Shown here one piece after another: positions 19,108 to 61,768 of a DNA stretch of 64,000 bases. Origin of the DNA: Plantactinospora sp. KBS50 (lineage in GTDB: Bacteria > Actinomycetota > Actinomycetes > Mycobacteriales > Micromonosporaceae). Numbering within the stretch: position 1 is the stretch's first letter; each line of letters begins with the position of its first letter. Position numbers and translations under genes: made by a program. Below the pieces are notes generated by a model that was not told the DNA's origin, made no database searches, and saw only the letters and a list, made by a program, of their open reading frames with translations. The stretch covers positions 5,088,001-5,152,000 of the forward strand of contig NZ_CP022961.1 of assembly GCF_002285795.1 (NCBI RefSeq), given 5' to 3'.

Positions 19108-19188
19108 GGTGCGGAGCGTAACAAGGGTCCCTTCCTTCCGCCGCAGGTCACCGGGTGCTAGCGTCAACGAGACAACTTCACATCCGAC

Positions 19189-19270
<82 letters not shown>

Positions 19271-19286
19271 CGGTCGATCTCCAGCC

Positions 19287-58603: not shown

Positions 58604-58822
58604 ATGCCGCAGCACCCCAAGGGCGATTTCGACCTGTCCCGCGCCGTCTGGCAGCGCGCCGACGGCGACCCGGCGGAGGAGGCCGTCGAGGTGGCCTTCG
58701 TCGACGACCTGATCGGCATGCGGAACTCGGCCGACCCGGACGGGCCGGTGCTGGTCTTCACCCAGGCGGAGTGGGACGCGTTCGTGGCGGGCGCCCAGGA
58801 CGGCGAGTTCGACCTCGAATGA
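58604..58822 (+). CDS. DUF397-family small protein
   Basis: A 72-residue protein with the DUF397 core VEVAFVDDLIGMRNSADPDGPVLVFTQAEWDAFVAGAQDGEFD. DUF397 proteins are small actinomycete proteins often paired with helix-turn-helix XRE regulators (BldB/WhiJ-like systems); no such regulator is adjacent here, so it is a solitary copy. Start ATG 58604 has GGAGG 5 nt upstream. A 12-codon open frame (58554-58592) ends just before it and could couple translation. The trpS leader begins 18 bp after the stop. Confidence 0.88.
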   Translation: MPQHPKGDFDLSRAVWQRADGDPAEEAVEVAFVDDLIGMRNSADPDGPVLVFTQAEWDAFVAGAQDGEFDLE

Positions 58823-58839: not shown

Positions 58840-58845
58840 TATCGT
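58840..58845 (+). promoter_or_regulatory. -10 box of trpS leader
   Basis: TATCGT lies 6 nt before the GTG of the leader peptide (58852), so transcription probably starts at that codon and the leader is translated without an RBS. Confidence 0.6.
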
Positions 58846-58851
58846 GGTGGC

Positions 58852-58890
58852 GTGCGGATGACCAGCACCGGCCTGTGGCGGGCGCCCTGA
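58852..58890 (+). CDS. trpS leader peptide
   Basis: A 12-codon open frame, MRMTSTGLWRAP, with a single Trp codon TGG at 58876-58878 and stop TGA at 58888-58890. It starts with GTG 6 nt after a TATCGT box and so is probably read from a leaderless message. Its Trp codon overlaps the first strand of the 1:2 stem and its stop abuts strand 2 of the attenuator, the arrangement required for ribosome-mediated control. Scarce charged tRNA-Trp would stall the ribosome at TGG. Confidence 0.88.
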   Translation: MRMTSTGLWRAP

Positions 58891-58956
58891 CGGGCGGCCC
58901 CGCGCATTCCGCACACCCGATACCCCAGACGGCCGCCCGACGCACCGGGCGGCCGT
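58878..58956 (+). promoter_or_regulatory. Tryptophan attenuator of trpS
   Basis: Three mutually exclusive stems. 1:2 pairs GCGGG-c-GCCC (58878-58887) with GGGC (58892-58895) and CCCGC (58899-58903). 2:3 (antiterminator) pairs CGGGCGGCC (58891-58899) perfectly with GGCCGCCCG (58931-58939). 3:4 (terminator) pairs ACGGCCGCCC (58929-58938) with GGGCGGCCGT (58947-58956), followed by TTCG. A ribosome stalled at the Trp codon masks strand 1 and allows 2:3; one that reaches the stop masks strand 2 and lets the terminator form. Confidence 0.9.
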
Positions 58957-59011
58957 TTCGCGTACCGCGTCCGCCCGGTGCCGGCGGCCCCGGACACCAC
59001 CGGAGCCCGCG

Positions 59012-60019
59012 ATGACCGCACCCGCCCTCGACGCCCGTTCCCGGCTGCGCCGGATCACCGGCCTGACCCCGAGCGGCCACCTGCACGTCGGCAACCTGCT
59101 CGGCGCGATGGCGCCCATCGCCGCCGGCCAGTACGACCACGACACCGTGGTCTTCCTGGCCGATCTGCACGCCATGACCGTGCGGCACGACCCGGCGCGG
59201 GTCCGGGCGAACACCCTGGAACAGGCGACGCTGCTGCTCGCCGCCGGGGTGGACCCGGAGGTCACGCTGCTCTATCCGCAGTCCCAGGTGCCGGCACACA
59301 CCGAACTGCACTACCTGCTGGAGTGCGTGACCGGGGTGGGCGAGGCCCAACGCATGATCCAGTACCGGGAGAAGTCGGCCCGGCAGCGGCAGGTGCGGCT
59401 CAGCCTGCTCACCTACCCGGTGCTGATGGCCGCGGACATCCTGCTGCACCGCATCCGCGAGGTACCGGTCGGCGACGACCAGGACCAGCACGTCGAGCTG
59501 GCCCGGGACCTCGCGATCCGGTTCAACCAGCGGTACGGCGACACCTTCCCGGTGCCGGTGGCGGTGCACCCGAGCGCCGCGGCCCGGGTGATGGACCTCG
59601 CCGACCCGACGTCGAAGATGAGCAAGTCGGCCGGCTCGGGCGCGGGCACGCTGTTCCTGCTCGACCCGCCGGACGTGCTGCGCCGCAAGGTGCTGCGGGC
59701 GGTCACCGACTCGGGGACCACTGTGGCGTACGACCCGGTGCACCGGCCGGGGGTGGCGAACCTGCTGGAGATCCTCGCGGCCTGCGCGGGCCGGTCCCCC
59801 GCCGACCTGGCCACGGAGTTCGACTCGTACGGGCGGCTCAAGGCCGCCGTGGTGGACGCCGTGCTGGCCCGGGTGACGCCTATCCAGGCCAGGTACGCCG
59901 AGCTGAGCCGCGACCCCGCCCACGTGCACGGCCTGCTGCGGGCGGGAGCCGAACGGGCGCGGGCGGCCACCGCGGACACGGTCCGGGCGGCCCGGGCGGC
60001 GATCGGCCTGCTCGACTGA
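59012..60019 (+). CDS. trpS: Tryptophanyl-tRNA synthetase
   Basis: A 335-residue class Ic synthetase that charges tRNA-Trp. HIGH-type motif TPSGHLHVGN (19-28), KMSKS at 202-206, and VGDDQDQHVELARD. Residues Asp51-Leu-His53 align with the Trp-site Asp-Gln-His of Bacillus TrpRS, so Gln is replaced by Leu. Expression is set by the attenuator upstream. In Streptomyces coelicolor it is the auxiliary, indolmycin-resistant TrpRS gene that is controlled this way, which makes this gene a candidate for that class; whether a second trpS exists is not visible. The ATG has GGAG 6 nt upstream. Confidence 0.95.
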   Translation: MTAPALDARSRLRRITGLTPSGHLHVGNLLGAMAPIAAGQYDHDTVVFLADLHAMTVRHDPARVRANTLEQATLLLAAGVDPEVTLLYPQSQVPAHTELHYLLECVTGVGEAQRMIQYREKSARQRQVRLSLLTYPVLMAADILLHRIREVPVGDDQDQHVELARDLAIRFNQRYGDTFPVPVAVHPSAAARVMDLADPTSKMSKSAGSGAGTLFLLDPPDVLRRKVLRAVTDSGTTVAYDPVHRPGVANLLEILAACAGRSPADLATEFDSYGRLKAAVVDAVLARVTPIQARYAELSRDPAHVHGLLRAGAERARAATADTVRAARAAIGLLD

Positions 60020-60118: not shown

Positions 60119-61768
60119 ATGAGCGAAGCGGCCGAGCGGGCGGACCGGAAGCCGCACAGCCCCTGGCTGGTGCTCTCCGTGCTCTGCCTCGGCTTCTTCA
60201 TGATCCTGCTGGACACGACGATCGTGAACATCGCGATCCCGGACATGAGCACCAGCCTGTCCGCATCCCTGGACCAGATCCTCTGGGTGCTCAACTCCTA
60301 CGTGCTGGTCTACGCCGTACTGCTGATCACTGCCGGCCGGCTCGGCGACCTGTACGGGCCGAAGCGGCTGTTCATCCTGGGTCTGATCGTCTTCACCGTC
60401 GCCTCGGCGGTGTGCGGCTTCGCCCGCAACCCCGAGCAGCTCATCATCGCCCGGGTGGTGCAGGGGGTCGGCGGCGCGCTGCTCACCCCGCAGACCCTGT
60501 CCGTGATCACCATGATCTTCCCGGCGGAGAAGCGGGGCGCCGCGTTCGGCCTGTGGGGCGCCGTCGCGGGCGTGGCCACGGTCGCCGGGCCGACCCTCGG
60601 CGGTTACCTGGTCACGGACTGGGGCTGGGAGTACATCTTCTTCGTCAACCTGCCGATCGGCATCATCGCCGTGGTGCTGGCCGCGATCGTGATGCCGGAC
60701 ATCAAGCTCAACCGCCGGCACCGGCTGGACTGGACCGGAACGGCGCTGGCCACCGTGGGACTCTTCCTGGTCACGTACGGGTTGATCGAGGGCGAGCCGC
60801 ACGACTGGGGCCGGGTGTGGGGACCGGTCACCATCTTCGAGGTGATCGCCGCCGGCGTCGTGGTGCTGGCCGTCTTCATGTTCCAGCAGTACGCCGGCCG
60901 GGACCGCGAACCGCTGGTGCCGTTCGCGATCTTCGCGGACCGCAACTACTCGCTGATGAACGTCGTGAGCGCGGCCATCGCGTTCGGCATGCTCGGCCTG
61001 TTCCTGCCGCTGGTGATCTATCTCCAGTCGGTGCTCGGACTGACCGCGTTGCAGGCCGGTCTCACCACCGCGCCGATGTCGCTGATCTCGATGTGCGTCG
61101 CCCCGCTCGCCGGCCGGCTCGCCGACCGCACCGGCGGCAAGTGGGTCCTGTTCCTCGGGCTCAGCCTCTGGTCGGTCGGCATGGGGCTGGTGGTCTGGCT
61201 GGCCCACGCCGACTCCGGGCGCTGGCACGTGCTGCCCGGCATCATCGTGGCCGGCTTCGGCCTGGGCCTGACCTTCGCGCCGTTGCAGACCATCGCCATG
61301 CGCAACGTGGCACCGCAGATGGCCGGCGCCGCCTCCGGGTTCATCAACACGGCCCGGCAGCTCGGCGCGGTGATCGGCTCGGCCGCGGTCGGTGCCCTGC
61401 TCCAGGTGCAGCTCGCCGACCAGTTGCGCAGCACCGCCCGGGCGAACGCCGGGGCGCTGCCGCCGCAGTTCCGCGACCAGTTCGTCGACGGCTTCAGCAA
61501 CGCCAGCGGCGGCAACCTGGAGATCGGCGCCGGCCAGTCCGGCGTGGAGCTGCCGCCGGACCTGCCGGAGCAGGCCCGGCAGGTGATCGGCGAGGTGGCC
61601 GCCCACACGTTCCGCCAGGCGTTCACCACGGCCATGCGGCACAGCCTGGTGCTGCCGCTGGCCGTCCTCGCCCTGGCCGCACTCTGCTGCGTGTTCGTCG
61701 CCCGCCGCTCCACCGGGGCGACCGAGTCGGCGCCGCCGACCCCCGAGCCGGTGGACGCGCACGTCTGA
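60119..61768 (+). CDS. MFS efflux transporter, DHA2 (EmrB/QacA) family
   Basis: A 549-residue drug:H+ antiporter with about 14 membrane helices. Helix 1 carries ILLDTTIVNIAIPDM, and RLGDLYGPKRLFILGL is motif A. An extracytoplasmic insertion (about 440-500) precedes the last helix. Family members export toxic small molecules. The ATG has GAGGAG 6 nt upstream. It lies 99 nt after trpS; a TATCGT box at about 60070 may give it its own promoter, but read-through from trpS is possible. Substrate unknown. No regulator is adjacent. Confidence 0.93.
   Translation: MSEAAERADRKPHSPWLVLSVLCLGFFMILLDTTIVNIAIPDMSTSLSASLDQILWVLNSYVLVYAVLLITAGRLGDLYGPKRLFILGLIVFTVASAVCGFARNPEQLIIARVVQGVGGALLTPQTLSVITMIFPAEKRGAAFGLWGAVAGVATVAGPTLGGYLVTDWGWEYIFFVNLPIGIIAVVLAAIVMPDIKLNRRHRLDWTGTALATVGLFLVTYGLIEGEPHDWGRVWGPVTIFEVIAAGVVVLAVFMFQQYAGRDREPLVPFAIFADRNYSLMNVVSAAIAFGMLGLFLPLVIYLQSVLGLTALQAGLTTAPMSLISMCVAPLAGRLADRTGGKWVLFLGLSLWSVGMGLVVWLAHADSGRWHVLPGIIVAGFGLGLTFAPLQTIAMRNVAPQMAGAASGFINTARQLGAVIGSAAVGALLQVQLADQLRSTARANAGALPPQFRDQFVDGFSNASGGNLEIGAGQSGVELPPDLPEQARQVIGEVAAHTFRQAFTTAMRHSLVLPLAVLALAALCCVFVARRSTGATESAPPTPEPVDAHV

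Follow-up and report, generated by a model that had tools for sequence, protein, structure and literature searches.

Attenuation upstream of a tryptophanyl-tRNA synthetase gene is known from Streptomyces, where it was reportedly described for trpRS1 of S. coelicolor by Vecchione and Sello in 2010 (J Bacteriol 192:3565). RNA-seq reannotation of S. lividans TK24 placed a leaderless reading frame with one Trp codon, trpL2 (MMTRTCTQLWRAA), before trpS (PMC8079986). A candidate attenuator was also predicted for trpS2 of S. avermitilis by Seliverstov et al. 2005, a report that treats trpS in Streptomyces and includes no wider family survey (PMC1262725). Here we describe a leader of this kind in Plantactinospora sp. 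KBS50 (Micromonosporaceae), within a stretch of 64,000 nucleotides that is referred to below as the window. We consider it very probable that an auxiliary trpS gene is controlled from positions 58840-58960 of the window by ribosome-mediated attenuation of transcription in response to charged tRNA-Trp.

The trpS leader and its gene

The features of the locus, in window coordinates, are as follows.

58840-58845, + strand: -10 box TATCGT of a leaderless-type promoter, 6 nt 5' of the GTG at 58852
58852-58890, + strand: leader peptide ORF, MRMTSTGLWRAP plus stop, 12 codons, with its GTG start at the predicted 5' end of the transcript
58852-58858, + strand: 5' arm of helix P0, GTGCGGA, comprising the start codon and next codons and pairing perfectly with 58908-58914
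58876-58878, + strand: single regulatory Trp codon (TGG), within the leader ORF
58878-58887, + strand: strand 1, overlapping the Trp codon; the 1:2 hairpin spans 58878-58903 (-19.5 kcal/mol)
58891-58903, + strand: strand 2, adjoining the leader stop codon; its GGGCGGC is nearly invariant in 66 non-redundant leaders
58908-58914, + strand: 3' arm of helix P0, TCCGCAC, within the spacer that separates strand 2 from strand 3
58930-58939, + strand: strand 3, whose GGCCGCCC is nearly invariant in the 66-leader alignment; its partner is strand 2 or strand 4
58946-58960, + strand: strand 4 and a short U-tract (here UUUCG), a putative intrinsic terminator
59012-60019, + strand: auxiliary trpS, tryptophan--tRNA ligase of 335 aa (TIGR00233, 294 bits against a cut-off of 177)

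The leader stop codon occupies 58888-58890 and strand 2 begins directly after it, at 58891. Stem 1:2 joins 58878-58887 to 58892-58903 with a 2-nt bulge, stem 2:3 joins 58891-58899 to 58931-58939 (9 pairs, 0 mismatches), and stem 3:4 joins 58930-58939 to 58946-58955 (10 pairs, 0 mismatches). An initial annotation made from the sequence had listed a leaderless promoter, a leader peptide of 12 codons with a single Trp codon, and three mutually exclusive stems. These elements are confirmed to the base; its coordinates and pair counts are right, and the peptide stop does abut strand 2. The leader has no Shine-Dalgarno sequence, and we saw no clear -35 box at its promoter. Directly upstream lies a small DUF397 gene (PF04149; 58604-58822), whose stop falls just 5' of the leader promoter, and a gene for a DHA2-family multidrug efflux transporter (60119-61768) starts 100 nt 3' of trpS.

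A second trpS copy, 46% identical to the copy in the window, is encoded elsewhere in the genome (G000:C1:816578). To place the two copies we used a family set of 301 Micromonosporaceae genomes from 44 genera, with no other Plantactinospora genome among them. At least one trpS gene is present in every one of the 301 genomes scanned, and a gene of the window type (at least 55% identity, up to 69%) is present in about 110 of them; in the largest genus, most genomes have only a trpS of about 46% identity. Given this distribution, we regard the copy of about 46% identity as the primary type and the window gene as auxiliary. At the position aligned to Gln9 of the Bacillus stearothermophilus enzyme, which may bear on indolmycin, 34 of the 36 TrpRS sequences of the auxiliary clade described below have K or T (T in the window gene), and the primary copy has Q. 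The K or T at this position hints at indolmycin resistance of the encoded auxiliary TrpRS, although we treat this as suggestive only. TrpRS1 is indolmycin resistant (PMC9437257).

Conservation in Micromonosporaceae and spread among actinomycetes

We compared the regions upstream of 110 auxiliary and 20 primary trpS loci of the family. The leader is present at 109 of the 110 auxiliary loci, the remaining one being cut by a contig end, and at none of the 20 primary loci. A script that looked for a short ORF with W or WW near its stop and strand 2 directly after it recognised 107 of these leaders, and those at L094 and L084 were recognised by eye. The leader at L084:1349-1420 is a natural variant without the usual stop, so that its ORF continues through strand 2. 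Two Trp codons are found in 88 of the 107 leaders, a single one in 18, and three in 1, so that the single codon, put forward in the initial annotation as a minimal example, recurs in the family as it does in S. lividans trpL2. The end of the ORF is conserved as W(W)xP or WRAP followed by the stop, the first Trp being codon 8-11 and the last lying 2-3 codons 5' of the stop in 106 of the 107 leaders. In 93 of the 107, a TANNNT motif, whose background frequency is 0.0012 per position, stands 12-14 nt 5' of the leader start; a related A/T-rich box is present in most of the remainder. A terminator-type hairpin follows on average 34 nt 3' of the leader stop (mean hairpin score of 9.7 in the relatives' leaders vs 5.8 in shuffles), and the 6 nt 3' of strand 4 contain a mean of 3.3 T in the relatives vs 0.9 in the background.

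Because the leader ORF, its Trp codons, strand 2, and the -10 box are kept together with the hairpin at the auxiliary loci and are absent as a set from the primary loci, we find it extremely unlikely that the hairpin is a mere terminator of the DUF397 gene, with trpS transcribed from its own downstream promoter and the leader ORF accidental. A terminator somewhere 3' of the DUF397 gene, which ends at 58822, would be unremarkable, but a plain terminator has no need of strand 2, P0, or a peptide. The position of the hairpin bears on a second reading, in which a ribosome at the Trp codon would alter access to the trpS ribosome-binding site and not the end of transcription: the trpS start lies more than 50 nt 3' of the end of strand 4 at 58955, and the T-rich stretch that follows strand 4 in the relatives is as in intrinsic terminators. 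Control of translation is very unlikely in our judgement, even though the U-tract of the window leader is short and a role at translation initiation has been predicted for the ileS T-boxes of Actinobacteria (PMC1262725). T-boxes, which regulate genes for aminoacyl-tRNA synthetases in Firmicutes and, in Actinobacteria, ileS (PMC1262725), also invite the reading that a T-box or riboswitch binds uncharged tRNA or tryptophan directly here. Conservation, however, tracks a coding ORF with Trp codons, and in searches of the leader at gathering and relaxed thresholds no Rfam family, T-box included, reached its gathering score, the weak matches being to unrelated families; direct binding is almost certainly not how this leader works. 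The only Rfam match in the window above its gathering score is a TPP riboswitch at 19179-19284 (RF00059, 65.8 bits).

The pairing of the strands is likewise maintained in a structure alignment of the 66 non-redundant leaders. Stem 3:4 is paired in 99.6% of cells, stem 2:3 in 97.7%, and stem 1:2 in 86%, and thus the Trp codon and the complementarity of the stems, whose loss in relatives had been named as grounds for abandoning the attenuator, are both conserved. The covariation proposed at the same time as a check of the stems is found in part: compensatory changes occur at three core pairs of 3:4 and none occur in 2:3. Given that the sequence of 2:3 is nearly invariant, an absence of covariation is understandable, and the support for this stem is one of conservation, not covariation. 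With the same architecture at 109 of the 110 auxiliary loci, chance can be considered excluded as its origin by comparison of the sequences, and not by folding alone.

Searched against the whole Plantactinospora genome, a covariance model for the leader matches once, at the leader in 58840-58960; this genome also has two trpE-type genes, at which no such leader was found. Across the class, the model matches 70 of 395 genomes and 17 of 138 genera, and of the best matches that were inspected, most precede trpS genes that fall in one clade with the window gene. This auxiliary clade (SH-aLRT 99) comprises 36 TrpRS sequences and includes those of leader-bearing Micromonosporaceae and of Streptomyces-type genes, a label that rests on the closeness of their leaders to S. 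lividans trpL2; the primary copy falls outside. The leader was also observed before two divergent TrpRS genes outside the clade (L214, L227), and thus repeated acquisition of the element, or its movement, is possible. In other actinomycete families, the same architecture, P0 included, was seen before genes of anthranilate-synthase type (L219, L225, L235, and L236; for example, MYATVLGMWWPAS), which were named from their sequences and not by a family search.

Overall, the survey shows that predicted tryptophan attenuation accompanies one trpS clade across actinomycetes almost without exception and is absent at the primary copy. The description of such control as otherwise rare outside S. coelicolor in the initial annotation does not hold, given that the leader is near-universal for this clade in Micromonosporaceae and extends to other actinomycete families; attenuation of auxiliary trpS is no mere Streptomyces curiosity.

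Folding and the proposed switch

The whole leader is predicted to be more stable than 200 of 200 dinucleotide shuffles (z -3.2), and its terminator half has a z of -4.2 against such shuffles. Stems 1:2, 2:3, and 3:4 are mutually exclusive, and the spacing of the ORF and the strands is such that a stalled ribosome is placed to mask strand 1 and a terminating ribosome to mask strand 2. We folded RNA ending just past strand 3 with the bases covered by a ribosome masked. The probability of 2:3 is 0 in the ribosome-free RNA, 0.99 with a ribosome whose A site holds the Trp codon, and 0 when the A site holds the stop codon, and thus a fold check by masking, as the initial annotation had suggested, gives the outcome expected of an attenuator. 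In the ribosome-free leader, P0 has a pairing probability of 0.95. When the full-length leader is folded at equilibrium, 3:4 is preferred in every case; the choice between stems would therefore have to be made during transcription, and the switch would be kinetic.

Support for the proposal of ribosome-mediated attenuation of trpS thus comes both from the family comparison, in which the Trp codon, the stop position, strands 2, 3, and 4, the -10 box, and a U-enriched tail are conserved together before auxiliary trpS only, and from the switch given by constrained folding. From this anatomy and its conservation we infer promoter use, ribosome stalling, termination, and induction as follows. Transcription would start at, or adjoining, the leader GTG, as the position of the -10 box places the start at or near 58852. 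When Trp-tRNA is plentiful, the ribosome would reach the stop codon and cover strand 2, allowing the 3:4 terminator to form and leaving trpS off. When Trp-tRNA is scarce, the ribosome would wait at the Trp codon and cover strand 1; strand 2 would then pair with strand 3 ahead of the synthesis of strand 4, no terminator would form, and trpS would be transcribed. In leaders that are not being translated, P0 and 1:2 would together hold strand 2, making the off state the default. The predicted outcome is a spare tryptophan-charging enzyme that is switched on when charged tRNA-Trp runs short, which suggests that the auxiliary TrpRS is an emergency copy reserved for shortage of Trp-tRNA, for example in the presence of an inhibitor of the primary enzyme.

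Helix P0 and comparison with known attenuators

Helix P0 was not among the elements listed in the initial annotation. In the 66 Micromonosporaceae leaders, pairing of the 5' end of each leader with its own spacer scores 17.6. The score drops to 14.9 (sd 0.32) when spacers are swapped between leaders, and it is 10.7 when the spacers are shuffled and 11.2 when a decoy region 3' of the terminator takes their place. A P0 helix of at least 7 bp is found in 64% of leaders vs 2% of shuffles, and the score still falls when spacers are swapped only among leaders that share their first codons (p 0.004, 0.017, and 0.012), all of these being pairing statistics that do not model phylogeny. The pairing is kept in other families with differing sequences (e.g., GTGCTG with CAGCAC, ATGTACGTGC with GCGCGTACAT, and TCGCGCATGTG with CACATGCGCGA); the predicted helix covaries across families, several of which reach the pairing with unrelated sequences. 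Its 5' arm starts mostly at nt 1-2 in Micromonosporaceae and around nt 9 in Streptomyces-type leaders, about 8 nt further in than in the window leader. We found no description of P0 in the literature searched, which did not include the S. coelicolor trpRS1 study of 2010.

We tentatively propose, as a possibility to which we give somewhat less than even weight, that P0 is a fourth conserved helix of actinomycete tryptophan attenuators and functions as a default-off lock: it would close over 1:2 when the ribosome is absent or has moved on and would keep strand 2 from strand 3. In Micromonosporaceae it would also hide the leaderless start codon, such that the leader might be read only once per transcript. 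Two other roles were considered. Sequestration of the start codon as a universal role was rejected, because P0 of Streptomyces-type leaders does not include the start codon, beginning only near nt 9, and a role as a strict sensor of ribosome position is unsupported, since the position of the Trp codon in Micromonosporaceae varies with leader length and that of P0, at the 5' end, does not. P0 raises the question of what keeps a leaderless leader ORF silent or restricts it to a single reading.

The leader shares with classical trp operon attenuators of Streptomyces, Corynebacterium, and Escherichia coli a leader peptide with Trp codons, a 1:2 stem, a 2:3 antiterminator, and a 3:4 terminator, and its strands 2, 3, and 4 resemble the gGCC-rGCy-GGCC triples of actinobacterial trp operons (PMC1262725). 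Unlike those attenuators, it precedes trpS and not a biosynthetic operon, and its ORF lacks a Shine-Dalgarno sequence. Like the S. avermitilis trpS2 candidate, it is a predicted attenuator before a tryptophanyl-tRNA synthetase gene. The likeness to S. lividans trpL2 extends to a short leader, here of predicted leaderless type, in which one Trp precedes RAx and the stop codon, to two hairpins after it, and to a TrpRS gene downstream, although the window leader belongs to Micromonosporaceae and has another leader sequence; the Streptomyces-type leaders found here (e.g., VMTRTCTQLWWAA) differ from trpL2 by one residue, start codon aside. The trpS leader of Plantactinospora thus belongs with the known trpS attenuator of S. 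coelicolor and S. lividans, to which the present analysis adds helix P0 and a near-constant association with a single trpS clade.
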